Shown here in pieces: positions 5,794-56,674 of a stretch of DNA of 64,000 bases. Under the pieces are notes generated by a model. That model saw only the letters and a program-made list of their open reading frames with translations, had not been told where the DNA came from and did no database searches. Each line of letters begins with the position of its first letter. Positions within the stretch are counted from its first letter, which is position 1. A program made the translations under genes and the position numbers. The stretch covers positions 28,744 through 92,743 of the forward strand of contig JAAEQF010000587.1 in the NCBI GenBank assembly GCA_024231695.1, in the 5' to 3' direction. The stretch is from FCB group bacterium (GTDB lineage: Bacteria; Zixibacteria; MSB-5A5; GN15; JAAZOE01).

Positions 5794-7934
5794 TGTCAAT
5801 TCAGGTCACACAACTAATACCATCTCTCGGAATCGTCGAAGCGCAAACGGCAGAAACTAGTTCGCCATACCTTTTCATTTTACGTGATCCCGAAGATGGC
5901 GAGATTGAAATCCCACAAGATGGGCTGATTTCGTTAATCGTTGTTGATTTGACTAAGAGCCCAGAAATAACCACTCCCTACTATATTAATTGTGGGTTGG
6001 ATATTAGTTTGGACGGTGGGGAAAATTGGGTGTCTGCGTATTTGACAGGTTCGTTTTTCGCACCCTACAACGGGACGTCCAGCGCGGTAGTGCAGCACTC
6101 ACTATCTGACCCATTTGTTTACAACAAAATAACGATCGATTACACCGGTCTTTATGACGACAGTTCAACCGTGATGGTTCGGGCGGCGGCCTCTGTTTCC
6201 GGTTGGGGGCATAGCCCATGGGGGCAATTTCCGTGGGGGCATCCGAGCGCGACGGATGTGTTGTTAGAGCAGTGGTCGTTTGTAATTGAGGACAAAACGG
6301 CACCACGGCTGATTTTTGCCGAGGCTATCGACAGAAAAATATGCCGGCTGACCTATGACGATGACATGCGCGCAGGGACACCGGACGGACGAGCACGCGT
6401 CCAAACAGGGACGCCAGGCACGTGGGATCTATACGTCGCCCCCCTTGATGATCCGTATACACTTACGGTCGTTGTGAACGGAGGGGGGACGCAGGAAATT
6501 ATCTTCCAAAATTACATGTGGTTAGATCCGCATGCGGTGACAGCTGACGAACTCGCAACCGCTTTATCGGCTTTGGTCGTTGGCGGGGTGTCCGCCGTCG
6601 ATGGTTCTAGCGGCGTGTATATTTATTCAGATACGGTCGGTGACTCGTCAAAAATAAAGGTTAACGGTGGTACCTCAAACGCCCTATTTGGTTTTGAGAC
6701 GACAGAAAAAACGGGCTCCAGCGAAGGAGTTTTGGACAAAGAAAATTATACAATTGAGCGAAACAACGTCTATCCGGCGGTTGCTGTCCATCTCGATGTC
6801 GAGGAGGTTGAATTTGTTGAGGGATCTTTGACGCAGGTTGACCTTACTTTTCAATGGGAGATGACACCGCGTGCACCATACACCGTGATTGTTGACGGTG
6901 ATGTTGCTGACACTTCTCACAACGACATCGATCCAGACTACAAAACGGCGCAATTTCTCGGATTTAATCCAGTGTGGCCAGAGGACAGGGACGCCGAGAT
7001 AAAAATGCCTCATTCCCTTTGGGAAGATGGGGATCCGTTGGACGTGGCGCGGGCTGTGGTCAACATGTACCAGGAAATTGAAGAACTCAAAATTACCGAC
7101 GTCGACGAACTATGGGACACGTGGAACATCGACGTTTGTAACGATCCAACCGTCGAATTGATGTTATACGATGCCGGGAACCCGTTTACAGATTTTGATC
7201 TCACCTCGATCCAAAAACGGAAATTAGTTGAACTACTACCGTTTATTTATCAACAAAAAGGCTTGTCATCCGGGCTGACATCAACGGTTTTAGTTATCCT
7301 CGGTATACCGGTGACGATTGTGTCGTACACTGCTGATTCATGGCGGCTAGGTATCGATATTTTGGGGAGCGAATACCCATCAAATCTATGGTCTTCGAAT
7401 GCGGAGCCGTTCAACATGATCGGCGGCGGAACATTAAACATAATTATCGACGGAGGACTCCAGCAAACGGTTACTTTTGTCGATACTGATTTTGCAATAC
7501 CTGGCGCAGCAAGTGCCGAGGAAGTGGCAATTGTAATAAACGATCAACTCACCGACGGCGGGGCGAATATTTTTGACGATGGCGGTGGGCGAAGGGTAGA
7601 GATACTCTCTTTTAAATGGGGCCCCGGGGCATCGATCCAGGTCACAGGGGGAACAGTTGCCAGTGCAATAGGGTTTGACACAGCAATAGTTTCTGGCGGC
7701 GGTGGGTGCATGCTGGCGCCGTCTTCGGAACGAATGCAGAGAACGTTCGATCTTGAATATTCGACGGTCGTGCCGTCGGACGAAGAAATTGAAAAAATTA
7801 GGAAAATTGCAATTTATATGAAGCCTGTAAACAAGCATCTTGGTAGGATAAGGGCAGCTAAGATTATTCCTACGTCTGAATATTGGCAATTGGGATTTGA
7901 TTACCTAGGAGTTGACACCGATCTAGGAGTTTAA
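5793..7934 (+). CDS. P2 gpI-like phage tail protein with two inserted beta domains (713 aa)
   Basis: The region at about 415-510 matches the P2 tail protein I pattern: a QKRKLVELLPFIYQQKGL segment followed by a conserved LG. Near the C-terminus the MKPVNKHLG segment is also typical. gpI-type proteins sit at the baseplate rim and connect fibres. Two homologous insert domains (about 220-310 and 545-640) each have a strand, an 'ATADELATAL' or 'ASAEEVAIVIN' helix and a final GGT-A-GF turn. A WGHSPWGQFPWG motif lies near residue 140. The gene is much longer than P2 gpI (about 180 aa) because of these additions. Confidence 0.7.
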   Translation: MSIQVTQLIPSLGIVEAQTAETSSPYLFILRDPEDGEIEIPQDGLISLIVVDLTKSPEITTPYYINCGLDISLDGGENWVSAYLTGSFFAPYNGTSSAVVQHSLSDPFVYNKITIDYTGLYDDSSTVMVRAAASVSGWGHSPWGQFPWGHPSATDVLLEQWSFVIEDKTAPRLIFAEAIDRKICRLTYDDDMRAGTPDGRARVQTGTPGTWDLYVAPLDDPYTLTVVVNGGGTQEIIFQNYMWLDPHAVTADELATALSALVVGGVSAVDGSSGVYIYSDTVGDSSKIKVNGGTSNALFGFETTEKTGSSEGVLDKENYTIERNNVYPAVAVHLDVEEVEFVEGSLTQVDLTFQWEMTPRAPYTVIVDGDVADTSHNDIDPDYKTAQFLGFNPVWPEDRDAEIKMPHSLWEDGDPLDVARAVVNMYQEIEELKITDVDELWDTWNIDVCNDPTVELMLYDAGNPFTDFDLTSIQKRKLVELLPFIYQQKGLSSGLTSTVLVILGIPVTIVSYTADSWRLGIDILGSEYPSNLWSSNAEPFNMIGGGTLNIIIDGGLQQTVTFVDTDFAIPGAASAEEVAIVINDQLTDGGANIFDDGGGRRVEILSFKWGPGASIQVTGGTVASAIGFDTAIVSGGGGCMLAPSSERMQRTFDLEYSTVVPSDEEIEKIRKIAIYMKPVNKHLGRIRAAKIIPTSEYWQLGFDYLGVDTDLGV

Positions 7935-7951
7935 GGAAGATTAGCGTTGTT

Positions 7952-8140
7952 ATGGATATTCATATGACACGGACGACAGACAACAATAAGGTTTTCAGGA
8001 AGAAACAGGAGGGATTCGTCTCTTTTACACAGTTTTCACATTGTTTAATCAATCTTCGCCTTCCTTCCTATACGGCAGAATTGCCACATTCTGGAAGTAT
8101 TAAGAACGGGAAGCACCCGAAAGATAAGGATACATCATGA
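7952..8140 (+). CDS. small ORF of doubtful status (62 aa)
   Basis: A short ORF fills the gap between two tail genes and ends by overlapping the next ATG (ATGA). An AAGGAAG sequence lies about eleven bases upstream, rather far. The product has no recognisable features and its composition differs from the neighbours. It could be a coupling leader for the next gene or a chance ORF. Confidence 0.35.
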   Translation: MDIHMTRTTDNNKVFRKKQEGFVSFTQFSHCLINLRLPSYTAELPHSGSIKNGKHPKDKDTS

Positions 8141-11043
8141 ATCGATACAATTTCTACTTTGAGCAGTTAGTAACAGAGGCCCAAATGGATCAGTCTTTTT
8201 CCTGGGCGGAGGAAGCAGATTGGCGCGCTATGACTACCGCTATACTCGGGAAGGTTTCCGGACAAACGGCACGGGGAGCGATTCACTGGGGCGCGACGGT
8301 AACGGAGAATGCATCGCCAAGCATGAGCGTTATTGTAACCCCTGGCGCGTGTTCTGACCCGACGGGTAGGCATGTTTCGTGGGATTTAAACCAGTCTGTA
8401 GATTGCTCTTTTGATTATCAGGCGGCGGCAACGGACGTTGTAGCTCCAGGGAACGAAAAGTATTTAGGGCTTTTTGCTCTTTGGAAACGAGATCTTACCA
8501 ACGCAGTGTCGGATGGTAACGGGCTGACCGTGTATTTCGAGCAGTACGATTCTTTCGAATTACAGATACACCAAGGGGTTGAGGCTTCGGCCGGGGCGGC
8601 TGTTCCACCGTCGACACCTGCGGACTCGATCAGACTCACAAATATATTAATAGCGTACGCGGAAACCCAAATTCTGAACGCTAATATTGAAGACAATATT
8701 GCAGGGCGTCTTAGGGACGACTATGTGCGGGTAATAGGTGTTAATCTGCCGAATTTTGTATATGGAAATCCGTCGGACGCTATCGCTGATTTATTCGATA
8801 AAATCGATACATATTCATCTAGCGGATCCGTCACGTTTCTCGGCACGTCAGATTGGCACGATAGTTCTGGGCCACTGAGTTCGGTCAACGTTCAGAATGC
8901 GATAAATGAAATTGTGGCAGATCTTGCCGAGGATAATGTTGGTTCTGGCGGGCAATGGGGTTCTGATAAAATTGGTTCTGATGCCTACGCTACAGCCGGA
9001 AACTATGCCGACCTTGCAAGAGGGTCTGTGTCTGATCAGTTAAGGGAATTGGCTGATTATATCGACGATAAATTCACTTTTTCTTTCACCTCTACATGGT
9101 GGGGGGGACAACCTGTTTCTGGGACTTCACCGCCTCCCACTAATGTTTTTGAGGCATTAGATGCTATCGTGCATGATTTAGCATCTACGAGCGGAGCGGA
9201 GCGTGTGGGAATGCAAGGATGGACATCAATTAATGGCTATGTCAGTTGGACTGCTGATAGGATCGGGGATGTCTTAACTGAGATTGGTACGGCTTTAGAC
9301 GGCCATATTAATGGCGATCCACCGCAGCACCCAACAGCATCAATTAGTGCTACAGATTATGATGATTGGGCATTTCTGAATTTTGAGGATAATTCAGCGC
9401 TGGCATCAAGTGGGTTAATTACAAATGCAGCCGGCGGGCAAGCTGCGGTATTTATAAAATATAGCTCAACTGATTTCGGAGATTTAGTATTAGTACACAG
9501 TTTAACTGGCACATGGATACCTCTTTCAAAAGTTAAAAATGGAGCTTCTTATTCTGACCCACCCGATGGTTATTTTTTGGGCAAAACGGGATCCCAGGAC
9601 CTTTTAGAAGGTGCCAACCTCGAACTACAATTGCAAAACATAGCAAAACGCCTTGCTGAGAGACCGGGCGACGAGGATAGTATCGTAAGGGGTGAACATT
9701 CGTGGGAAAAGAATCAATATTTATTACAAGGTGCGCATACTAATTGCTTAACGGAGGGAGGGGGGAGCCCGAATCTTTCCCCCCCTTCTCAGTTAAAGGA
9801 AGGTGTTAATCTTTCCGACACCTCACAAAAAACGTGGGGGCACGGCGAAAACAATACTATTGCTACTATTTCTGATGATTTAGTGGACATATGCAAAGGC
9901 TGGGCATACGATCAAAATAAACATTGCGTATATGCAGTTGGTGATCGTTATAGTGGTGACTGTGTTGTGGTACGTACTTTCGTTGATAATCACGATAATT
10001 TCTTAACAACTCATTATGGTATTTGTACAGCCGACGCGTCTGGAACGCCGTTAACCACGGCTAATGCAAATGCAGAATTGTATGGTGTTTGTTCGGACGG
10101 CGAACGTATTTATGTGCTTGCACAAAGATCTGCAAGCGGTGCTGCTGCTGCTGTGCATTGTTATGACGCGAAACTATGGGATGATGGAGGGTTGCTTAAA
10201 TGGATATGGTCAACAGACATTCCTGTTACGACAGGTTCATTAGGGACAAGAAAAACCGATAGTAGGATCAGATGTTCGACGAATAAAATTTGGGTTCTCC
10301 AGGGGGCTGAGAATGTCGACTTGGCTGGAACGGGAACACCTATTGCAAGCATGTCTTCTGTTGATGGTAGTGGCGTTATCCAGGATAAAGGAGATCCGCT
10401 CTCCACTGGCGGTACCCCATGTTATCCCCAGGGGGGATTGACAATATCAAAAGATAATGAAGTTTTTTTCTCCGTAGGAATAAGCGGAGCAGGCAGTTGG
10501 CTTGTGCCTGCTGATAGTGTTGGCGCATCGACGGGTAAGGGGACGATGGGGTTCACAGCTACTCAGTGTAGAGAAGTATTAATTCCGGGATATCGTAATG
10601 TCGTGGGGATCGGTGATGGTGAGCCCAATACAATAGTGTACCCGAACGATTGTTTTGGAACGATTAAATGGTGGGATTGGAATAACAATACTAAGGACTA
10701 TCAGTTTTTTATTCCGGTTTATCAGGAAGAGTTTGTAGACAAGCCAATGGTCGGAGATTTCGACGGCGTGTCGATGTGGATAAAAGTTTGCATGAATACA
10801 ACAGGAGATGCCAGGCTAGGGGATAATTATGGTGTTTTCGCAATTCACGGCGCCGAACTCGCGGGCAAAAAAGATCATATCTATACCCCCCAAAGAGTTT
10901 ATCAAATCAATGAAGCAAGGGTGACAACTTCGGGAAAAGAACCTGGCAGAATTTGCGCTTGGGGACCTGGGATCTGGAACATCCCTTATGAAAACGATGA
11001 TTCCAAAATAGGATTTATGCCATTTTCTAAATTATCCGGTTAA
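8137..11043 (+). CDS. putative tail fibre with N-terminal attachment region and beta-propeller-like C-terminus (968 aa)
   Basis: AAGGA precedes ATG 8137. The first about 200 residues (RYNFYFEQLVTEAQMD, later GNEKYLGLFALWKRDLT and ADSIRLTNILIAY) match the layout of phage proteins that begin with a baseplate-docking domain followed by a fibre shaft. The central region is Gly/Asp-rich. From about residue 585 onward there are repeated segments such as VYAVGDRYSGDCVVVRTF and GERIYVLAQRS that look like blades of a propeller. The domain assignments are by eye. Position beside the gpI-like gene supports a receptor-binding fibre. Confidence 0.65.
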   Translation: MNRYNFYFEQLVTEAQMDQSFSWAEEADWRAMTTAILGKVSGQTARGAIHWGATVTENASPSMSVIVTPGACSDPTGRHVSWDLNQSVDCSFDYQAAATDVVAPGNEKYLGLFALWKRDLTNAVSDGNGLTVYFEQYDSFELQIHQGVEASAGAAVPPSTPADSIRLTNILIAYAETQILNANIEDNIAGRLRDDYVRVIGVNLPNFVYGNPSDAIADLFDKIDTYSSSGSVTFLGTSDWHDSSGPLSSVNVQNAINEIVADLAEDNVGSGGQWGSDKIGSDAYATAGNYADLARGSVSDQLRELADYIDDKFTFSFTSTWWGGQPVSGTSPPPTNVFEALDAIVHDLASTSGAERVGMQGWTSINGYVSWTADRIGDVLTEIGTALDGHINGDPPQHPTASISATDYDDWAFLNFEDNSALASSGLITNAAGGQAAVFIKYSSTDFGDLVLVHSLTGTWIPLSKVKNGASYSDPPDGYFLGKTGSQDLLEGANLELQLQNIAKRLAERPGDEDSIVRGEHSWEKNQYLLQGAHTNCLTEGGGSPNLSPPSQLKEGVNLSDTSQKTWGHGENNTIATISDDLVDICKGWAYDQNKHCVYAVGDRYSGDCVVVRTFVDNHDNFLTTHYGICTADASGTPLTTANANAELYGVCSDGERIYVLAQRSASGAAAAVHCYDAKLWDDGGLLKWIWSTDIPVTTGSLGTRKTDSRIRCSTNKIWVLQGAENVDLAGTGTPIASMSSVDGSGVIQDKGDPLSTGGTPCYPQGGLTISKDNEVFFSVGISGAGSWLVPADSVGASTGKGTMGFTATQCREVLIPGYRNVVGIGDGEPNTIVYPNDCFGTIKWWDWNNNTKDYQFFIPVYQEEFVDKPMVGDFDGVSMWIKVCMNTTGDARLGDNYGVFAIHGAELAGKKDHIYTPQRVYQINEARVTTSGKEPGRICAWGPGIWNIPYENDDSKIGFMPFSKLSG

Positions 11044-11615: not shown

Positions 11616-12731
11616 TTAGCGAAAATCTACAAAAACATAATTGCCGTCGATGTGCAGTCCAATTTCCTGAAATTGAGAATCATTAGATTTAGGTGCCGAC
11701 AATGCAAATCTGATTTCTCTAACACCAGTATAATCCACGTCGAACGTGTGATCGGAGTTTATCCATTTGTCCCAATACGGATCACATCGGGGAGGTGTTC
11801 CGGAGTCGGACCAAATCTCTATTTTGCCAAATTTTCCGTCAGGCCTTATTCCGTTTAGCCTTACTTCCATCGAAAAATCGTCCAACCTACCCTTGCTGCA
11901 GAACCACGTTCCGACTGTTACATTCATATTTCCAGAATCAAGTTGTTCTTCGGTGAAGTGGTCCAACAAATTAATGTATTGTACTAGTCCGCACGCGGTT
12001 CCGTTATTCGCGAACACCGCTCTACCGTCTGGGGCGTTTGGGTTATACGCTGATACGGTGAAACAATCATCAAAGACTCCTTTTACGGTCCAGTTGTCCA
12101 TCCCTTGTTCGGCTCCGGGGTTCATGAGTAGATTCACGGGCGGCGGTATTTCCGTGTCGGTATCCGTATCGGTATCGGTATCCGTATCCGTGTCGGTATC
12201 GGTATCCGTATCAGTGTCGGTATCTGTATCTGTATCTGTATCTGTATCTGTATCTGTATCTGTATCAGTATCCGTATCGGTATCCGAGTCTGTGTCGGTA
12301 TCTGTGTCTGTATCGGTGTCGGAATCCGAATCAATATCTGTGTCAGTGTCAGTATCTGTGTCAGTATCAGTGTCAGTATCTGTGTCAGTGTCAGTATCTG
12401 TGTCAGTATCAGTATCTGTATCGGTGTCTGTGTCGACATCCGTATCCGTATCTGTATCCGTGTCGGAATCCGTGTCGGTATCAGTATCTGTATCAGTGTC
12501 CGTATCGGTGTCCGCGTCCGCATCACTATCTGAATCACTATCGCCGTCAGAGTCACCATCGGAGCCAGTGTCGACATCGATGTCGGTGTCACCTCCATTA
12601 TCAATATTGTCAGCGTCAGAATCGAATTCAATATTTTTAGGTTCTACATAAAAAGCATCATCGTAATCATGCACCGAACAACTCAACACCCAAGCGCATA
12701 TCACTAATAAAAAAACATTTTTTCGTTTCAT
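11616..12731 (-). CDS. surface lipoprotein with long Asp-Thr/Ser repeat (moron candidate, 371 aa)
   Basis: I place the start at 12731 because GGAGGAACC lies directly upstream on the minus strand and the protein then begins with a lipoprotein signal (MKRKNVFLLVICAWVLSC). The lipobox is LSC, giving a lipidated cysteine with Ser at +2. Next come an acidic linker and about 150 residues of DT/DS dipeptide repeats. The C-terminal domain of about 170 residues begins LLMNPGAEQGMDNW, a motif typical of carbohydrate-binding-like beta-sandwiches. It has its own promoter and the opposite orientation to the phage genes. A function in the lysogen surface or superinfection exclusion is inference. Confidence 0.8.
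   Translation of the reverse strand: MKRKNVFLLVICAWVLSCSVHDYDDAFYVEPKNIEFDSDADNIDNGGDTDIDVDTGSDGDSDGDSDSDSDADADTDTDTDTDTDTDTDSDTDTDTDTDVDTDTDTDTDTDTDTDTDTDTDTDTDTDTDTDTDIDSDSDTDTDTDTDTDSDTDTDTDTDTDTDTDTDTDTDTDTDTDTDTDTDTDTDTDTDTDTEIPPPVNLLMNPGAEQGMDNWTVKGVFDDCFTVSAYNPNAPDGRAVFANNGTACGLVQYINLLDHFTEEQLDSGNMNVTVGTWFCSKGRLDDFSMEVRLNGIRPDGKFGKIEIWSDSGTPPRCDPYWDKWINSDHTFDVDYTGVREIRFALSAPKSNDSQFQEIGLHIDGNYVFVDFR
12151..12594 (-). repeat. 6-bp microsatellite encoding (Asp-Thr/Ser)n
   Basis: Successive hexamers of the type GTATCN/GTGTCN run for about 440 bp. Codon use drifts between repeats, so it is selected for the amino-acid pattern. The tract is prone to length change by slippage without breaking the frame. 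Confidence 0.95.
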
Positions 12732-12755
12732 GGTTCCTCCATAGCTACTATATAA

Positions 12756-12783
12756 AAAATAATCCATGAAGGTCAGGTGTCAA
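12756..12783 (-). promoter_or_regulatory. promoter for the lipoprotein gene
   Basis: On the minus strand a perfect TTGACA (12783-12778) is followed after 16 bp by TATTTT (12761-12756), about 25 bp before the gene's ribosome site. It implies independent transcription of the lipoprotein. Confidence 0.5.
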
Positions 12784-14895: not shown

Positions 14896-16029
14896 ATGGT
14901 AGACACACAAATTTATACTCCGGAATCTTTAGCAACAAATGGACATTCCGACACGGGCGAAATCATGAGCGCTCAGGGTGGAATGGACGTAGAATCTAGC
15001 CGAGCGATTGCAAGCGTTCAAGCATCGATGGTGATGGCGGCAAAGAGGCCTCGGCGGGAAATCGCTTCTTGGAAAAGAATGAAGGCTGCCTGTAGCCGTC
15101 TTCGTTTTGCAGAAAAGGCATTGTTTGCATATCGGCGTGGCGGGACGCTTGTTTCTGGTCCAACGATTCGCTTGGCAGAATCCCTTGCCTCGGCCTGGGG
15201 AAATCTCGATATGGGGTTTAAGGTTATTGAAAAGCTTGAAGGTGGTCACCTTGTCCAAGTTTTCTGCCATGATCTCGAATCGAATTTGAGGGTATCAAGA
15301 GAACTCATTATAAGCAAAAATAGATATATGGGCGGTGATCTATTGAAAGCAGAGCGGGACATCGCAGAAAATATTTCCTCGGTAGCTCAACGAAACGTAA
15401 GGAACGTCGTCCTTCAATGCTTGCCGGCGGATTTAGTAGAAGATGCGATCTCACAATGCCAAAAAACAATGGCGAAAGGAGATGGCCGGCCGTTGCAAAC
15501 ACGCATTCGTGACGCCGTTGTAAGTTTTGAGGAGATAGGCATTAGTGTTGCGATGCTGGAGGATTTTCTGGGGCACAATATGGAAGCAACTGAACCGCTT
15601 GAGATCCCCAAATTGCAGGGCGCTTATCAATCGATCACATCAGGAATGGCAAAGCGAGAAGAGCTATTCAATATTGCTGCGGATCTACCGGCGCCGGTGG
15701 AAAAAAAGAAAAAAGTTCAAACCGTAGAGCCGAGCAAAACCGAAAAAAGCACCAACGACAAAATACGAGACGCACTACAAGCAGAAAAAGAAGGGCGAAC
15801 ACCGTCCGGAAAAGATCCGTCAGCGCATGTGCCCACAACGGACGAGATTAATGAAGAAGAGTTGGTAGCAATTCAACAACGCGAGATGGAAGAATATGAA
15901 GCGGCACAATATGAGCGTGGACGGGGAAAAGAAGACAACAACGATAATGGTGAATTACCACTCGATTACACACCAAAAACGGCAAGGAAACCACGGCAAG
16001 CCAGAGGCATGAAGACAAAGGGGGTGTGA
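14896..16029 (+). CDS. conserved phage protein of the recombination module (annealing-protein-like, 377 aa)
   Basis: Residues about 35-225 contain a signature I recognise from many phages: SSRAIASVQASMVMAAKRPR, then CSRLRFAEKALFAYRRGG, SGPTIRLAESLASAWGN and VQRNVR-like helices. The family commonly lies beside phage exonucleases or ssDNA-binding genes and is often thought to act in recombination. Its biochemical role is not something I can show here. The C-terminal third is charged and low-complexity (lysine/glutamate-rich), probably disordered. It is followed by an overlapping start (TGATG). Confidence 0.65.
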   Translation: MVDTQIYTPESLATNGHSDTGEIMSAQGGMDVESSRAIASVQASMVMAAKRPRREIASWKRMKAACSRLRFAEKALFAYRRGGTLVSGPTIRLAESLASAWGNLDMGFKVIEKLEGGHLVQVFCHDLESNLRVSRELIISKNRYMGGDLLKAERDIAENISSVAQRNVRNVVLQCLPADLVEDAISQCQKTMAKGDGRPLQTRIRDAVVSFEEIGISVAMLEDFLGHNMEATEPLEIPKLQGAYQSITSGMAKREELFNIAADLPAPVEKKKKVQTVEPSKTEKSTNDKIRDALQAEKEGRTPSGKDPSAHVPTTDEINEEELVAIQQREMEEYEAAQYERGRGKEDNNDNGELPLDYTPKTARKPRQARGMKTKGV

Positions 16030-18623: not shown

Positions 18624-19001
18624 TTAGTATCCCATTTGTTTTTTCATAGATCTGCGGTGGGTCTCGTATTCTTGGTCAATTTTAGCGGACTCTTTTTCAG
18701 TTTTTAGTTTTTCTTGCCATTCCTCGGTAGATTCGATTTCCGCGATAGCGGCTTCGATTTTATCAAGGATTTCTTGTTTCATCGCCAGGCATCCAATTTT
18801 GGCGGCGAATACGGGATGGTTTAGTTTTTCGGGTTTGCCATAACCAATATGTGAGTTATCGACATATGCATCAATGTCGAAGTCACAACATTTTACTGTG
18901 ATTTGATCTCCATCTACGTTGATATTTTCTTTGGTGTTTAAAGTTAGTTTTACTTCGGCGTTTTGGTTGTTGCTAGTTTTCCATGTGATTATTTTTTTCA
19001 T
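18624..19001 (-). CDS. small reverse-strand protein behind a CACAATGTG promoter (125 aa)
   Basis: The ATG at 19001 is preceded by GGGGAAC, as in many genes here; the ORF-track start is far upstream of the promoter. The protein starts with a beta region (KKIITWKTSNNQNAEVKLTLN), has a CCDFDIDAYVD strand and ends in a charged helix. No family was recognised. An in-frame upstream ATG (19046) lies at the predicted transcript start and would add 15 residues; see findings. It is one of only two minus-strand genes, so it probably belongs to a different regulatory programme. Confidence 0.7.
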   Translation of the reverse strand: MKKIITWKTSNNQNAEVKLTLNTKENINVDGDQITVKCCDFDIDAYVDNSHIGYGKPEKLNHPVFAAKIGCLAMKQEILDKIEAAIAEIESTEEWQEKLKTEKESAKIDQEYETHRRSMKKQMGY

Positions 19002-19053
19002 TGTGTTCCCCGTTTCGTTGTTTGTTTTGTGTGTTGCGTTGTTCATGAGTATC

Positions 19054-19082
19054 AACTTATAGCACATTGTGTATAGTGTCAA
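19054..19082 (-). promoter_or_regulatory. promoter with CACAATGTG operator (family member 1)
   Basis: On the minus strand TTGACA (19082-19077) and TAAGTT (19059-19054) are 17 bp apart. The palindrome CACAATGTG occupies spacer positions 6-14, three bases before the -10, as in the other copies. Confidence 0.75.
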
Positions 19083-19130: not shown

Positions 19131-19158
19131 TTGACGGAAGTATCTGATTCGGTAATCT
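19131..19158 (+). promoter_or_regulatory. promoter of the antirepressor leader
   Basis: TTGACG at 19131 and TAATCT at 19153 are 16 bp apart. Transcription would start near 19165, just before the interleaved inverted repeats. Confidence 0.55.
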
Positions 19159-19167
19159 AGAACAGTG

Positions 19168-19276
19168 CAGCCCGCAAAACTGCGCAACTTTGAAATTTTA
19201 AGATCTTCCGATGAGTTACCGAGTTTTCCCTACCTTTGCGGGCTGTACGTTGAGCTCGGTGGCTCATCGGAGGATC
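19168..19276 (+). ncRNA. interleaved inverted-repeat leader (pseudoknot-type) of the antirepressor
   Basis: Arm A CAGCCCGCAAA (19168-19178) pairs perfectly with A' TTTGCGGGCTG (19235-19245). Arm B (19202-19223) pairs with B' (19255-19276) over 22 positions with three G-U wobbles and no mismatch. The order is A-B-A'-B', so the stems either form a pseudoknot or exclude each other. The wobbles indicate selection at RNA level. B' ends about nine bases before the AAGGAGG ribosome site, so folding could control access or transcription. No known riboswitch class was recognised. Confidence 0.7.
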
Positions 19277-19298
19277 CTATTTTTAAGGAGGTATTAAA

Positions 19299-36152: not shown

Positions 36153-37016
36153 ATGCACGAGTTACTTAATAAATTAAAATTAGTTGCACTTTTAGTGTTC
36201 GCTTGCGTAGCGTTTTTAACACTGGGGTATATGATCTTTTTGAAGGACATAGGCGCAGAACAAAGCGGTGTGGTGCCATCACAACAATTGATTATTGAAA
36301 GCGACGATATTTTAGAAACGTGTGAATCCCAAGCGTTGTTTTCTGACACCGAGTATACAACCGAGCTTCCGGTTGAATTTATAGGGGCAAGGGGGGAACC
36401 AGACCGGGCTGAATATGAGCCAGATTTGGCGCTCATGCGGTGGGAAGTGATCAAACTCTGGGAATTATTTTTTGACGACGACGGCGCTAAACAGACTGAC
36501 CCACGGCGGGAAATGTCCAGCAAATATGCTGAGTACGTTATCGACGCTGTGACAATGTATCAAGATAGCCCCACGGATATTGGGGGACAACTACCGACAC
36601 ACAAAAATGTCCATCTGCTCGTGGCGTGGATGATCGCCAAAGAAAGTTCTGTTACCAACGGAGTAGTCGGGAAACTCGGCGAGGTTGGTATGATGCAGAT
36701 TATGCCTACTAACAAGGCTGCGTTGGCGGGATACTCACCAAAAAAAATCAAAAACAATCCAAAATTGAGTATAATGCTCGGTGTGCGGTGGATGGCGTAT
36801 ACCACGTCAGAGTGTCCTAACACGGACATTTTCGACACCGACTGGAATGATCTAGACTGGGTCAAGCCGCTATCTGCTTACGCCGGCGGCCAGAATGCAA
36901 AGCGTGAAAATGGCACTTGCAAATCATTCACTGTGGCCAAGGAACGCGTGCAAAGAACAATGATGTATCGAACGCGCATTGACCAATTGGTTGATACTGA
37001 ATATTTGACTGATTAA
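36153..37016 (+). CDS. membrane-anchored SLT-type lytic transglycosylase (287 aa)
   Basis: AAAGGGGG precedes ATG 36153. A hydrophobic N-terminal helix (LVALLVFACVAFLTLGYMIF) acts as a signal anchor. In the SLT domain (about 145-240) AWMIAKESS carries the catalytic Glu near 163. KLGEVGMMQIMP and a final SAYAGGQNA are standard family motifs. It cleaves the glycan strand of peptidoglycan. It may act in lysis or in DNA entry; the distance from tail genes favours lysis. Confidence 0.8.
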   Translation: MHELLNKLKLVALLVFACVAFLTLGYMIFLKDIGAEQSGVVPSQQLIIESDDILETCESQALFSDTEYTTELPVEFIGARGEPDRAEYEPDLALMRWEVIKLWELFFDDDGAKQTDPRREMSSKYAEYVIDAVTMYQDSPTDIGGQLPTHKNVHLLVAWMIAKESSVTNGVVGKLGEVGMMQIMPTNKAALAGYSPKKIKNNPKLSIMLGVRWMAYTTSECPNTDIFDTDWNDLDWVKPLSAYAGGQNAKRENGTCKSFTVAKERVQRTMMYRTRIDQLVDTEYLTD

Positions 37017-37032
37017 ACAAAAACTATAGTAT
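37005..37032 (+). promoter_or_regulatory. promoter with very short leader
   Basis: TTGACT at 37005 and TAGTAT at 37027 (16 bp apart) lie just before ATG 37039, giving at most a few leader bases and no ribosome site. Confidence 0.4.
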
Positions 37033-37038
37033 AAAAAC

Positions 37039-37347
37039 ATGACAACTGGAAATAACCTCTTGGACAGGATAGATAATTTATGCGAACACTTTCGAAAAAC
37101 GCAGAGTCCAGGATGGGAAACAAACACAAAAAAACTGACCAAAATCCGAGAACACGTTGTTGATGGCGTGGTACTAGGAGCTCCTGAATACATTTTTATG
37201 GATTCGATCCAGCCTAGAATTTTAAACAAATGCATATCCATGAAACCGCTTGGCGGCTGCAAAATTGGATTAATGGAATGGTGCAGTCACCGTGGAGAGT
37301 GGGAGCATGGTATTTGTAAGTGCAAAAAGTACATAGAAAGGGCTTAA
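37039..37347 (+). CDS. cysteine-rich hypothetical protein (102 aa)
   Basis: The ATG is seven bases after a -10 candidate and lacks a Shine-Dalgarno site. A C-terminal CSHRGEWEHGICKCKK resembles a zinc-binding or disulfide segment. Function unknown. Confidence 0.6.
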   Translation: MTTGNNLLDRIDNLCEHFRKTQSPGWETNTKKLTKIREHVVDGVVLGAPEYIFMDSIQPRILNKCISMKPLGGCKIGLMEWCSHRGEWEHGICKCKKYIERA

Positions 37348-38921: not shown

Positions 38922-39387
38922 ACGTACAAAGATATTCTACTCGATAGTGATTTCTCTATGCTGGATGCAAAGGCGTCCAGTTACTCTCCTTGATCTAAAC
39001 AAATTTCTAAAAATTACCAAAAAGCAAGTTCGCAAAGAACTCAAAATACTCGAGGACGACGGCCGCATTGCGAAAGTTCAAATTCGCCAGGGAAGATTGT
39101 GCGCTGCGTGGGTCATTGCCGATAACGACAGGCTGCCGTCTGAAATACGTGATGTTTGTCAGGTGTGCGGGATTCAGAAGGCTGACGAGAATTACGGCGC
39201 AGAGCGGGTATGTCATCCGTGTTTCCTAGCGGCAAAGTCTGACCGCGGGCGGCTGTATCTAAACGAATGTATCGAGGCTGATTACTCGTTGTGGTTGGCT
39301 ACCGTTTACACAATTCCAATCGAACACACACTACGCCTCCCCCATGATAATTATAGCGAAAAAATAAAAATAGTTGACACCGACTGA
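38908..39387 (+). CDS. winged-helix plus zinc-knuckle protein (159 aa)
   Basis: The N-terminal half has TLLDLNKFLKITKKQVRKEL followed by LEDDGRIAKVQIRQGR, a helix-turn-helix with wing. The C-terminal half contains CQVCGIQKADENYG and CHPC, a zinc ribbon. This combination suggests a DNA-binding phage regulator. It ends just before a promoter that uses its last codons. Confidence 0.6.
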   Translation: MLRNERTKIFYSIVISLCWMQRRPVTLLDLNKFLKITKKQVRKELKILEDDGRIAKVQIRQGRLCAAWVIADNDRLPSEIRDVCQVCGIQKADENYGAERVCHPCFLAAKSDRGRLYLNECIEADYSLWLATVYTIPIEHTLRLPHDNYSEKIKIVDTD

Positions 39388-39402
39388 GTGATAGTTTAAG
39401 GT
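39374..39402 (+). promoter_or_regulatory. promoter (degenerate member of the TTGAC-N17-TA family)
   Basis: TTGACA at 39374 and TAAGGT at 39397 are 17 bp apart. The operator position holds a degenerate CTGAGTG rather than CACAATGTG, and the leader contains TACTCA and GGGGAACGG as in the family. Confidence 0.5.
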
Positions 39403-39457
39403 TACTCAGAACGACGGGGAACGGCGCAAAAAAACGCCATAAAAAAGAGAGTAGAAT

Positions 39458-39736
39458 ATGCCAAAAAAGGTGAGTGCATGGCAGTGTTCATTTGGGTGCG
39501 GGATAATTCTCAAGGCCAAAGCAACAATCGATGAGCACGAAAAGAAATGTTTTGAAAATCCAAAACGAAGATCATGTCCGACCTGTAAACATTTTTCGCC
39601 GAAATATAGGACTTGTTATGATTTAACTAGCGAACATCCATACTGTAAAAGACTGATGAAAATTATGTATAACCAATACTGTGATTGTACTTTGTGGAGG
39701 CCAAAACCGACTGATGGAAGGAATGATTATGCCTAA
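39458..39736 (+). CDS. zinc-finger-like protein, paralogue A (92 aa)
   Basis: WQCSFGCG, HEKKCF and CPTCKHF give several cysteine/histidine zinc ligands. Residues 1-35 match the protein of the next gene, so the two genes arose by duplication. The genes overlap by eight bases. Function unknown. Confidence 0.65.
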   Translation: MPKKVSAWQCSFGCGIILKAKATIDEHEKKCFENPKRRSCPTCKHFSPKYRTCYDLTSEHPYCKRLMKIMYNQYCDCTLWRPKPTDGRNDYA

Positions 39737-43881: not shown

Positions 43882-43910
43882 TTGACGCTACACACAAAGT
43901 GATTTAAGTT
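43882..43910 (+). promoter_or_regulatory. promoter with CACAAAGTG operator (family member 2)
   Basis: TTGACG (43882) and TAAGTT (43905) are 17 bp apart. CACAAAGTG (43893-43901) occupies the same spacer position as the CACAATGTG of the other members. Confidence 0.65.
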
Positions 43911-43945
43911 TGTACAGCGAACGGGGAACAACGAAAGGATTAACC

Positions 43946-49315: not shown

Positions 49316-49344
49316 TTGACATTGTGCACAATGTGTTTTAATGT
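49316..49344 (+). promoter_or_regulatory. promoter with CACAATGTG operator (family member 3)
   Basis: TTGACA (49316) and TAATGT (49339) are 17 bp apart; CACAATGTG is at 49327-49335. Confidence 0.75.
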
Positions 49345-49387
49345 TCCCTTATGCACGGCGGGGAAGCCGACAAACAAGGAGGACACA

Positions 49388-49690
49388 GTGCCAGCAGTAG
49401 AAATCGTCAAGGTTTATGCAGATACCGTTTATGTTTATAGGCTGACCAATATGGCCCATAGTTCGGCTAAATTTGGCAATTGCCAGGTATGTAACAAACA
49501 TGTCAGTGAAGTTCATTTACAAACCAAATATGGTCAGTGCAAGAAAGCCAACGGGAAATATTTCTGGGCAGATCAGGGCGCGTTATGGGGGCACAAAGAT
49601 TGCGTGATTGGAAAACGGGAAACGGGCAAGAAAATGAATCTCAAAAAGTTCACATTTGGCAATAATTCGTGGGAGGTCGAAGAACAATAG
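49388..49690 (+). CDS. small zinc-binding protein (100 aa)
   Basis: AAGGAGG before GTG 49388 sets the start; the track's earlier start precedes the promoter. CQVCNKH and later CKK/DCVIG residues suggest a zinc site. It stands alone between an operator-bearing promoter and a strong terminator, a single-gene cassette. Confidence 0.65.
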   Translation: MPAVEIVKVYADTVYVYRLTNMAHSSAKFGNCQVCNKHVSEVHLQTKYGQCKKANGKYFWADQGALWGHKDCVIGKRETGKKMNLKKFTFGNNSWEVEEQ

Positions 49691-50866: not shown

Positions 50867-50894
50867 TTGACCCATACACATTGTGTGATAAGGT
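50867..50894 (+). promoter_or_regulatory. promoter with CACATTGTG operator (family member 4)
   Basis: TTGACC (50867) and TAAGGT (50889) are 16 bp apart; CACATTGTG (50877-50885) stands three bases before the -10 as in the others. Confidence 0.7.
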
Positions 50895-50940
50895 ATTACT
50901 CATGACGACGCAACACACAAACAACGGAACGGGGAACACA

Positions 50941-51210
50941 ATGACAAACGCACAAATCAAAAAAACAATCAAAAAAGCTCTTGGTAATGACTGTAAAAAA
51001 ATTGGCGTAGCGATTTCCGCTACAACTAGAAGCCCGAAAATGAATTGGAGAAATATTTCTGTGCTAATCGAAACCGATGGACAACGCGAAAAAGCCTTTG
51101 AAATTGTCAACAGTGTCGTTAGTTCATGCGGTTTTAAAATGGTTAAATATTCTGAATATGAAGGTCTTTATGGCCAGACAAAAACGGCAATTGTTACTGT
51201 AAACCACTAA
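50941..51210 (+). CDS. hypothetical protein behind shared leader (89 aa)
   Basis: GGGGAAC lies before ATG 50941. An in-frame ATG at 50902 near the transcript start would add 13 residues. The protein has two conserved-looking halves (GVAISATTRSPKMNWRNISV). The upstream leader is near-identical to those of three other cassette genes. Function unknown. Confidence 0.65.
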   Translation: MTNAQIKKTIKKALGNDCKKIGVAISATTRSPKMNWRNISVLIETDGQREKAFEIVNSVVSSCGFKMVKYSEYEGLYGQTKTAIVTVNH

Positions 51211-52607: not shown

Positions 52608-52636
52608 TTGACACTCTACACAATGTGTAATACAAC
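52608..52636 (+). promoter_or_regulatory. promoter with CACAATGTG operator (family member 5)
   Basis: TTGACA (52608) and TACAAC (52631) are 17 bp apart; CACAATGTG (52619-52627) is in the spacer. Confidence 0.75.
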
Positions 52637-52679
52637 AATACTCATGAACGGCGCAACACAAACAAAAAAAGGAAACACA

Positions 52680-52916
52680 ATGCAAATCACAACAGAAATA
52701 ATTGACGGCGTTATCTATTACGGGACAGTTCTTCGCGGCGTAACGTACACAATTTTTCAACAGGATGCTGAATGGTGTGTTTTAAGTCGCCGTAATGCAC
52801 TCATGAACCAAGGCACTTGCCGCTATTTCGAAACCTTGGCGGCCGTCGAAAAGAAAATCAAAGGACTATTTGGAATTAGTGCACTACTTCAACCAATGAC
52901 AGACGTGCAAGCGTAG
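52680..52916 (+). CDS. hypothetical protein behind shared leader (78 aa)
   Basis: AAAGGAAACACA precedes ATG 52680; an in-frame ATG near the transcript start would add a short extension. Beta-like N-terminus and helical C-terminus. No family recognised. Confidence 0.6.
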   Translation: MQITTEIIDGVIYYGTVLRGVTYTIFQQDAEWCVLSRRNALMNQGTCRYFETLAAVEKKIKGLFGISALLQPMTDVQA

Positions 52917-53296: not shown

Positions 53297-53822
53297 TGAT
53301 GTAATGAGTTGGGAGCCTTGCGAAGAATATTCGAGAGAACGGATAGAAGAATTAGGTGACGGAAAAGGTGCTCTGACCGGGTTAGAAATTTCAGGACTCA
53401 AAAAGGTTTCTATTGAAGACCGGCTATGGCTTATTCTGCGAGAACATTTTTTCAAAAAATCTGATTTATTAATGATGAAAACAGCTTTTGCGGAATCGGT
53501 CGTGCATTTGAATCAAGATCCAAGAGTTGCGAATGCAATAAAATTTATCCGGTTGTATGCGTTCGGTGAAGTAGATAAAGCAGACTATCTTGCTGCTAGG
53601 GACGCTGCCGGGGCCGATGCTTGGGCCGATGCTTGGACCGCTGCTTGGACCGCTGCTTGGACCGCTGCTTGGGCCGCTGGGGACACTGGGGATGCTGGGG
53701 ATGCTGGGGACGCTGCCAAAAATGCTGTTTGGGAGAACCATTTAGAGATCGTTCGAATCTACCTAAAAGACCAACAAGGAGGAAATAATGATTATCCGAA
53801 GAGACTGGATCGAAGCTCTTAA
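53280..53822 (+). CDS. Imm-5-like putative immunity protein with AWTAAW repeats (180 aa)
   Basis: Residues about 5-90 are helical. Residues about 105-125 have repeated AWTA/AWAA units followed by GDAG units. This alternating pattern is similar to phage 'putative immunity protein' genes (Imm_5-like). The 12-bp repeat in the DNA (GCTTGGACC) could vary in length. An immunity role is a guess from the pattern. Confidence 0.45.
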   Translation: MIATIDDVMSWEPCEEYSRERIEELGDGKGALTGLEISGLKKVSIEDRLWLILREHFFKKSDLLMMKTAFAESVVHLNQDPRVANAIKFIRLYAFGEVDKADYLAARDAAGADAWADAWTAAWTAAWTAAWAAGDTGDAGDAGDAAKNAVWENHLEIVRIYLKDQQGGNNDYPKRLDRSS

Positions 53823-54790: not shown

Positions 54791-54819
54791 TTGACGCGGT
54801 GCACAATGTGCGCTAGTTT
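54791..54819 (+). promoter_or_regulatory. promoter with CACAATGTG operator (family member 6)
   Basis: TTGACG (54791) and TAGTTT (54814) are 17 bp apart; CACAATGTG is at 54802-54810. Confidence 0.75.
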
Positions 54820-54863
54820 AATACTCATGACAACGCAACACACAAACAACAAAAGGGGATAGG

Positions 54864-55070
54864 ATGACAGGACCACAACTTAATGAACTCAGAAAAACGC
54901 TTAGATTTTCACAGAAAGATTTTGCGGCTCAATTGAAATTATCGTTGAAGGGCTATTTATCAATAAAACGGTTGACTAAAAAACCGTTGCCCCTAATGCC
55001 CTGGCAAGTCGCACTTTTGCGCGCGCAGTGTATCACCATCGGTTGCCGACCTAAAGACTTTGGATTTTAA
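54864..55070 (+). CDS. XRE-type HTH protein (68 aa)
   Basis: AAAGGGGATAGG precedes the ATG. LNELRKTLRFSQKDFAAQLKLSLKGYLSIKRL is a Cro/XRE helix-turn-helix. It is transcribed from the CACAATGTG promoter, so it may be a regulator within that network. Confidence 0.7.
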   Translation: MTGPQLNELRKTLRFSQKDFAAQLKLSLKGYLSIKRLTKKPLPLMPWQVALLRAQCITIGCRPKDFGF

Positions 55071-55097: not shown

Positions 55098-55334
55098 ATG
55101 AAAAAATCACAGTTGCGCCCGATCAAGGGCGTTAAATTTGCGAATGGAGCTTTGAGCCGTAGTGATTTTAAAAAAATCCAAAAGGCGTTTGGCTTTACGA
55201 GTTTTGAAATGGCCGATGCACTGGCAATGAAACGACGAACTATTATTGCAATGCGGTCCGGAGAACGAAACATTGCCCCGTGGACGGTAAAGCTCATGCA
55301 GTATGTTGCGAAAGAAAGGGGATTCATTTTCTGA
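55098..55334 (+). CDS. XRE-like HTH protein (78 aa)
   Basis: GAGGTATT before the ATG. SDFKKIQKAFGFTSFEMADALAMKRRTIIAMRSGE is a helix-turn-helix. Adjacent to a similar small HTH gene and coupled (TGATG) to the methyltransferase gene. Confidence 0.65.
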   Translation: MKKSQLRPIKGVKFANGALSRSDFKKIQKAFGFTSFEMADALAMKRRTIIAMRSGERNIAPWTVKLMQYVAKERGFIF

Positions 55335-56674
55335 TGGCTAAAGCAAAAAAAACAACCAAAAAAGTGACCAAAAAGGCACCTAAAAAAACAACGAAAAAAA
55401 ACACTCCTAAAAAAAAGGATTTGACCGTTGCAGATGGGATTCCGGTGCACTGTGCATGCGACGATATTGTCCCGATTGCTAAGATAAAACCGTACCCACA
55501 AAACGCCAACATGCACCCATATGATCAGGTTTTATTGTTGGCAAAATTGATCCACGGCAACGGGTGGAGGGGGCCGATCACTATCTCGAACCAGTCAGGT
55601 TTTGTGGTGCGTGGTCATGGCCGGCTGGCGGCGGCAAAAAAACTGGAAGCGATGGTAGTCCCGGTCGATTATCAGGACTACGAAAATGAGGAATTAGAGC
55701 GAGCAGATCGGCTGGCTGACAACAAAATCCAGGAATTATCAGAGTGGGATCGTTCTCTTTTAAAAGATGAACTGAGCGATCTAGACAGTGGCGTTTTGGG
55801 GGATATGGATTTAACCGGATTCATGGAGCCAGACCTTGAGGAACTGATGACCGCAGCCCCACCGCCTGAGTTAAATGATGGCGGAGGTGAGTCACAACCT
55901 CGTATAGAAGAGGCCGAAGAATTACAAAAGAAATGGAACGTCAAAAAAGGTCAATTATGGGAGATGGGGAATCACATGTTGCTGTGCGGTGATTGTTCCG
56001 AAAAATCAGATATTGATAAATTATTAAATGGTGAAAAAGCGTCTATGATGTTTACTGATCCACCCTATGGGGTGTCTTATTCCGGAAAAGGGAAGACAAA
56101 AAGAGCAATAATAAAAAACGATGACATAACGGAGTCGACATTGGTATCAATGAGTAGGCAATGGTTTGACGGTGCATTTTACGCAACGTCGGACAGTGCG
56201 TATTGGCTTTCAACGATTCCACAGGGGCCACTGGGAAATATTTTTATGTCGGATTGGATAGAAAGGGGAATATTGCGCCAAGTTTTAATTTGGGTGAAAA
56301 ACAATTTTGTTATTGGACACCAAGAGTATCATTATCAACATGAGCCGATATTATTTGGATGGAAAGATGGCGGTGATAGATTAAAAAATAGCGATCGGAC
56401 GAAAACATCTTTATGGTGTTATGACAAACCCCACAAGTCCGATATTCATCCGACGATGAAACCTGTTGATATGTGGAAATATGGGATAGAAAATCACAGC
56501 GTCAAAAATGATTTAATATACGAGCCATTTTCAGGATCAGGGACAAGCATAATTGCGTGTGAAGATAGCGGTAGAAGATGCATGGCTATTGAAATCGATC
56601 CTAAATATGTGGCCGTAACACTTCAGAGATACCATGACGAAACCGGCAACATGCCGACGTTGAAAAAAAATTAA
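55334..56674 (+). CDS. ParB-like nuclease domain + DNA methyltransferase fusion (446 aa)
   Basis: The start overlaps the previous stop. Residues 1-30 are a lysine/threonine-rich basic tail (KKTTKKVTKKAPKK). Residues about 40-140 form a ParB/Srx-like domain (IKPYPQNANMHPYDQ, VVRGHGRLAAAKKL). The methyltransferase domain has DPPY near 241 before FSGSGTS near 398, i.e. the beta-class order for N4-cytosine or N6-adenine enzymes. Such phage fusions are common; they modify phage DNA against host restriction or mark it. No cognate endonuclease is seen. Confidence 0.8.
   Translation: MAKAKKTTKKVTKKAPKKTTKKNTPKKKDLTVADGIPVHCACDDIVPIAKIKPYPQNANMHPYDQVLLLAKLIHGNGWRGPITISNQSGFVVRGHGRLAAAKKLEAMVVPVDYQDYENEELERADRLADNKIQELSEWDRSLLKDELSDLDSGVLGDMDLTGFMEPDLEELMTAAPPPELNDGGGESQPRIEEAEELQKKWNVKKGQLWEMGNHMLLCGDCSEKSDIDKLLNGEKASMMFTDPPYGVSYSGKGKTKRAIIKNDDITESTLVSMSRQWFDGAFYATSDSAYWLSTIPQGPLGNIFMSDWIERGILRQVLIWVKNNFVIGHQEYHYQHEPILFGWKDGGDRLKNSDRTKTSLWCYDKPHKSDIHPTMKPVDMWKYGIENHSVKNDLIYEPFSGSGTSIIACEDSGRRCMAIEIDPKYVAVTLQRYHDETGNMPTLKKN

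Follow-up and report, generated by a model that had tools for sequence, protein, structure and literature searches.

A leader shared by four operator-linked promoters of an uncharacterised phage may be a 5'-terminal-AUG, ACA-rich translation-initiation module

AUG codons at the 5' terminus of mRNAs that also carry a Shine–Dalgarno (SD) sequence are found on scattered Escherichia coli genes, and their purpose is unclear. Martin-Farmer and Janssen reportedly found in 1999 that CA repeats immediately downstream of the start codon aid leaderless translation. On SD-led mRNAs of E. coli, 5'-uAUGs are bound by 70S ribosomes and have been proposed to have a standby role; changing the 5'-uAUG of ptrB to AUC cut downstream expression by 93%, and a start-stop mutant of ptrB retained about 40% (PMC4965119). 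A strong enhancing effect on translation has been shown for ACA motifs that precede the SD (PMC3879156). Some SAS elements of cluster K mycobacteriophages have an upstream inverted repeat (PMC3203893). Here we describe a leader, found four times in one phage, that combines an ATG at the predicted transcript start with an ACA-rich box ahead of an SD-led gene.

The window analysed covers the final 64 kb of a contig of 92,743 bp from a bin of 1001 contigs (5.1 Mb). The contig begins and ends with the same 141 bases, and so probably represents the closed genome of a phage, about 92.6 kb in size, placed in a bacterial bin. Genes for a terminase (57479), a portal protein (59164), a DNA polymerase exonuclease subunit, a replication initiator/helicase-loader-like protein, an amidase, a transglycosylase and a P22-type antirepressor with a KilAC domain (19299) identify the contig as a phage, which is uncharacterised. 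The organism of the bin may differ from the phage host. The bin contained no 16S rRNA gene, and the standard anti-SD sequence was assumed for all SD scoring. An Rfam search of the phage returned tRNA only. A strongly structured RNA was predicted upstream of the antirepressor gene (19151–19285, plus strand; minimum free energy (MFE) −51.7 kcal/mol over 135 nt), with interleaved complementary stretches (19169–19178/19235–19244 and 19208–19215/19263–19270) that suggest a pseudoknot; it had no credible match in Rfam. Elsewhere in the window, a long Asp/Ser/Thr repeat protein (DTDTD/DSDSD) is encoded behind a lipoprotein-like signal (11616–12767, minus strand), and short tandem repeats at 53620–53720 (plus strand) lie within an open reading frame and encode Ala/Asp/Trp repeats (PHROG 18326).

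Four cassettes with a common ATG and CA-rich leader had been claimed in a preliminary description, and all of them are present. Their genes start at 50941 (cassette A), 52680 (B) and 54864 (C) on the plus strand and at 19001 (D) on the minus strand. In each cassette, TACTCATGA is followed after 3–4 nt by CGCAACACA, then by a run rich in A and C and an SD-like site ahead of the gene ATG. The copies of TACTCATGA are located at 50897–50905(+), 52639–52647(+), 54822–54830(+) and 19051–19043(−), and the gap to CGCAACACA is 3 nt in A and C and 4 nt in B and D. The leader ATGs, at 50902, 52644, 54827 and 19046, precede the gene ATGs of A, B, C and D by 39, 36, 37 and 45 nt, respectively.

The promoter of cassette A (50867–50894, plus strand) has the −35 element TTGACC, a 16-nt spacer with the operator CACATTGTG (50877–50885) and the −10 element TAAGGT. 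Its leader (50897–50940) begins with TACTC/ATGA and carries CGCAACACA at 50909–50917; the gene ATG at 50941, preceded by the SD-like CGGGGAA, opens a gene for 89 amino acids without a family match (50941–51210). Cassette B (promoter 52608–52636, plus strand) has TTGACA, the operator CACAATGTG (52619–52627) and the −10 element TACAAC, which was placed in register by aligning B with the other three cassettes. Within its leader (52639–52679), CGCAACACA occupies 52652–52660, and AAGGA precedes the ATG of a gene for 78 amino acids without a credible family match (52680–52916). The plus-strand promoter of cassette C (54791–54819) consists of TTGACG, the operator CACAATGTG (54802–54810) and TAGTTT, and is followed by a leader (54822–54863) with CGCAACACA at 54834–54842 and AAGGGG. 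Gene C (54864–55070) encodes a 68-residue Cro/XRE-like HTH regulator (PHROG 14076 transcriptional regulator, E 3.8e-5). A second, weakly HTH-like open reading frame (55098–55334) lies downstream on the same strand, followed by a gene (55334–56674) in which a ParB-like domain is fused with an N6/N4 DNA methyltransferase. Cassette D, on the minus strand, has TTGACA, the operator CACAATGTG (19063–19071) and TAAGTT (promoter 19054–19082), a leader (19002–19051) with CGCAACACA at 19038–19030 and the SD-like CGGGGAA before the gene start. Gene D (18624–19001) encodes 125 amino acids with no assigned function and is divergent from the antirepressor gene.

By sequence, each cassette is a promoter of the sigma70 type whose −35 and −10 elements flank a CACAWTGTG operator. 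CACAWTGTG is an odd palindrome and occurs in the spacer of all four promoters; in the window, perfect copies were restricted to these cassettes and position 49327, with a one-mismatch copy in the promoter at 43882. The HTH protein of cassette C is, we infer, an obvious candidate for autoregulation through this operator. Behind the shared −35 element (TTGACN), the −10 boxes are weak, and 2 nt separate them from TACTC/ATGA. When positions were counted after the −10 hexamer, taking the TAnnnT/TACAAC register, the leader ATG began at position 8 in 4/4 cassettes, a placement that depends on predicted start sites and weak −10 boxes. Transcripts usually start at positions 7–8 after the −10 hexamer, preferably with a purine, which makes the A of the leader ATG our best guess for the transcript start. 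The proposal that the predicted +1 falls at or near this ATG thus held, with an uncertainty of a few nucleotides because the −10 boxes are weak. For instance, if cassette D used an alternative −10 element (TATAAG, with a 15-nt spacer), the ATG would fall 4–5 nt inside the transcript.

Two related promoters carry the operator but lack the CA leader or the ATG at +1. The promoter at 49316–49387 (plus strand; TTGACA, palindrome ACATTGTGCACAATGT, −10 TAATGT) has a different leader, in which an out-of-frame ATG (49351) falls at position 7 after the −10 hexamer, and its gene starts with GTG at 49388 behind a strong SD, AAGGAGG. Taken alone, this ATG is weak evidence, because ATGs at positions 7–8 were also found at 5/70 promoter-like sites in unselected viral loci. 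The promoter at 43882–43945 (plus strand; CACAAAGTG, leader TACAGCGAACGGGGAAC) has a +1 without ATG. Two other plus-strand loci of the phage were observed alongside these. At 39374–39460, a TTGACA-17-TAAGGT promoter is followed by TACTCAGAACGACGGGGAACGG and resembles the cassettes, without an operator, ATG or CA box. At 37005–37347, the gene at 37039 begins with ATGACAAC 7 nt after a TAGTAT −10 element and has no obvious SD; it is possibly a truly leaderless gene in the same phage.

The 18 bases formed by TACTCATGA and CGCAACACA, hereafter the core, are invariant across the four cassettes (18/18). The exact two-box pattern occurs four times in the phage contig, against about 5e-5 expected, whereas TACTCATGA alone with one mismatch allowed is not enriched (13 found, 12.3 expected). 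An additional TACTCATGA copy at 12122(−) sits in a coding repeat and was discarded as unrelated. Being related by descent, the four copies do not count as independent, and constraint was judged by comparison within the genome. Mean pairwise identity among the cassettes was 0.50 in the −10 element, 0.54 in the 30 nt upstream, 0.46–0.50 in the spacer flanks around the operator, 0.63 immediately 3' of the box and 0.44 over the first 30 bases of coding sequence. Outside functional elements, only 10/148 columns were identical in all four (background 0.068 per column). Recent copying of the cassettes, with a functionless leader identical by descent, would agree with the similarity of the whole promoters; with flanks, spacer and −10 at about 50% identity and 18/18 core columns fixed, we consider it very improbable. 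Common descent seems to account for the sharing, not for a fixed core amid diverged columns.

The TACTC 5' of the ATG shows the same invariance as the other core bases, and its conservation upstream of the predicted +1 is the most telling unexplained point; it may reflect start-site selection by RNA polymerase. The core could also act at the DNA level, as an initially transcribed region or core recognition element for promoter escape, or as a second site for the repressor or another phage factor. The position of TACTC upstream of the predicted +1, exactly 11 bp from the operator in 4/4 cassettes despite unrelated sequence between them, and the palindromic TCATGA agree with such a role. Nevertheless, we judge it rather improbable: with a gap of 3 or 4 nt after TACTCATGA, CGCAACACA does not keep a constant helical phase to the operator, core and operator are dissimilar, and the core is absent from the operator promoters at 49316 and 43882.

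The leaders are nearly free of T after the upstream ATG (none in A, B and D, one in C) and contain 5–8 ACA motifs upstream of the SD. Their MFE is 0 kcal/mol in 4/4 cassettes, with no hairpin or terminator, and the start regions (−40/+30) rank among the least structured 1–2% of the gene starts of the phage. The SD duplex energies (−5.6 to −7.8 kcal/mol, assuming the standard anti-SD in the absence of a 16S sequence in the bin) are in the normal range of the phage. The suggested role as a translation enhancer is supported by this composition, the zero structure, the multiple ACA motifs before the SD and the precedent of ACA enhancers (PMC3879156). The mRNAs of the cassettes might then simply be of the usual SD-led kind and share an unstructured, C/A-rich enhancer of the S1/standby or ACA type, with the ATG near +1 incidental and the internal AUG the only start. 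The CGCAACACA box, the ACA motifs, the lack of structure and the presence of an SD would all fit, and ACA enhancers work upstream of the SD (PMC3879156). This reading, however, leaves unexplained both the ATG at the predicted +1 and the invariance of TACTCATGA, which equals that of the CA box, and CA-richness in general needs no exact 9-mer; we hold it to be unlikely, though far from negligible.

The leader frame had been described as open into three genes, adding 12–15 residues, and as stopping in the fourth. This was borne out: the in-frame extensions comprise 13 codons in A, 12 in B and 15 in D, and the 11-codon uORF of cassette C (from 54827) ends at a TAG 1 nt ahead of the gene ATG (TAGGATG). 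If the 5' AUG is used, ribosomes would reach the gene in frame or, in C, stop 1 nt short of it. The open frame is not evidence for translation and is best seen as a by-product of the near T-free composition, because leader composition alone gives an open-frame probability of 0.83–1.0 and three of four leader ATGs would be in frame with their gene by chance with P = 0.11. CGCAACACA begins 7 nt after the A of the ATG in A and C and 8 nt after it in B and D, and is read in different frames. The leader peptides (MTTQHTNN versus MNGATQTKK/MNNATHKTNN) are unrelated between the pairs because the 3/4-nt spacing shifts the frame of CGCAACACA, and it is nucleotides rather than amino acids that appear to be conserved. 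A conserved leader peptide, a third role that had been suggested, was thus not supported. Although a short open reading frame is present in 4/4 cassettes, a leader peptide or attenuator controlling the genes is barely credible: the box shifts frame and the peptides differ, the leader has no hairpin or terminator, and 3/4 of the frames continue into the gene without a stop. Among antisense sRNA seeds sought in the phage, the longest matches were 11–13 nt and none was common to the four cassettes.

Searches for the leader elsewhere gave two kinds of result. The exact pattern was found at 10 viral-contig and 60 genome-contig loci, about the number expected by chance, and at none of them behind a promoter. 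No meaningful match to cassette A was found among phages with BLASTN, none to genes A, C and D with tblastn, and no other cassette in genomes of the class. Relatives were sought via HTH gene C, the ParB/methylase gene, the terminase and the proteins at 14896 and 46655; one near relative (L161, terminase 75% identical) was recovered. The L161 piece, which ends 1.5 kb upstream of the terminase, contains no operator cassette, and these searches yielded no close relative carrying the leader. The ParB-like gene of L161 apparently lacks the methylase part. In genomes of the bin's own family, ATGs in a leaderless position numbered 51 at 6–7 nt versus 31 at 13–14 nt, a modest enrichment that gives weak support from a lineage that may not be that of the host.

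A looser search of viral contigs for a −35 element, ACTCATGA and CAACACA, with the −10 element unspecified (TTGACN{20,26}ACTCATGAN{1,8}CAACACA), found 5 sites in 4 contigs. By a rough estimate this count is close to chance, and the weight rests on the sites with a clear −10 element. The ATG was at position 7 after a −10-like hexamer at 5/5 sites, three hexamers being clear (TATAAT, TACTAT, TATACT) and two weak (CAAGAT, GAGAAT), and it directly opened a reading frame at 4/5 (MNNTRR..., MTNNTV..., MTNTAT..., MNNTAV...). One contig, L211 (IMGVR_UViG_3300023210_000611, 11.6 kb), has its promoters on the reverse strand (6444–10434 in reverse-complement coordinates); BLASTN against INPHARED phages found no relative of it. 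In all sigma70-type promoters detected in L211 (10/10), TATAAT or TACAAT is followed by an ATG at exactly 7 nt, compared with 5/70 at positions 7–8 in unselected viral loci, and most of these L211 ATGs directly open genes, so that the fragment looks pervasively leaderless. Promoters 8936 and 9390 are identical; the former leads to a HAD-like gene that looks leaderless, the latter to a 5' AUG with CACACACA / GCAACACACACACA, GGAGGAG and the gene AUG, a layout equal to that of the window cassettes. At promoter 10434, an in-frame extension lies ahead of an SD-led ATG. This placement of the ATG is thus a recurrent way of starting phage genes at the predicted transcript end.

We give about an even chance to the reading that the four cassettes share a 5'-terminal-AUG, ACA-rich translation-initiation module. 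They would be copies of one phage regulatory module composed of a sigma70-type promoter, a repressor operator in the spacer and a common 5' leader that serves as translation-initiation region. Transcription would start at the A of ATGA and produce an unstructured, U-poor mRNA beginning with 5'-AUGA-N3/4-CGCAACACA, with an SD-led AUG 36–45 nt downstream of the 5' AUG. The terminal AUG, together with the ACA-rich box that follows, would draw in ribosomes directly. Translation could then start at the 5' AUG and give an N-extended protein for three genes and the uORF for the HTH gene, or the 5' AUG could be a loading site feeding the SD start. A possible leaderless start, the remaining role suggested earlier, gains from the ATG at the most probable +1 and from unrelated viral contigs where genes start directly with the same −35/−10/ACTC/ATGA arrangement; it is compatible with the translation enhancer. 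Several points speak against a 5'-AUG module. The −10 boxes are weak and the start could be a few nucleotides off, and leaderless initiation in E. coli declines with even short 5' extensions. In addition, translation from a 5' AUG alone would not require the invariant TACTC, the operator promoter at 43882 has no ATG at +1, and the gene AUGs, each behind a usable SD, may need no help. More tentatively, and somewhat doubtfully, the phage may use the identical 5'-AUG/ACA module on the four promoters of its operator regulon for direct 70S (leaderless) as well as SD initiation, giving N-extended isoforms or expression under limiting 30S initiation, with independent phages such as L211 having the ACTC/ATGA geometry at nearly every promoter.

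If the proposed module is real, one such leader is repeated across an operator-defined regulon and is more conserved than the −10 element, which would indicate selection for the arrangement. The cassettes would also lend themselves to a compact reporter assay of whether 70S ribosomes that enter at a 5' AUG go on to serve a start codon further downstream. For annotation, the start codons of the cassette genes are ambiguous.

The cassettes resemble the E. coli 5'-uAUG mRNAs (ptrB, iscR, rcnR; Beck, Fleming & Janssen 2016, PMC4965119) in their predicted 5'-terminal AUG, short leader and SD-led gene start downstream, with a uORF that ends near or overlaps the gene. They differ in that one sequence is shared across four operator-linked units, in that their 5' ends are predicted only, and in that three of their 5' AUGs share the reading frame of the gene, whereas the tested E. 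coli cases were out of frame or ended upstream. With the C/A-rich/ACA enhancers of GcvB targets (yifK, dppA, gltI; PMC3879156) they share an unstructured ACA-rich stretch upstream of the SD; unlike these, they have a conserved 9-mer, identical in all copies and coupled to an ATG at the predicted +1, and the phage yielded no conspicuous candidate for a complementary sRNA. As in the SAS/ESAS of cluster K mycobacteriophages (PMC3203893), a short conserved element is repeated 5' of phage genes. However, SAS is GGGATAGGAGCCC beside the start codon, whereas the box described here lies at the predicted transcript start; in the window, GGGATAGGAGCCC had no match with up to 2 mismatches and a single 3-mismatch match, at the SD of cassette C. 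Finally, the AUG at the (here predicted) 5' end of the transcript is a feature of leaderless phage genes such as lambda cI, from which the cassettes differ by the SD-led AUG that follows 36–45 nt later.
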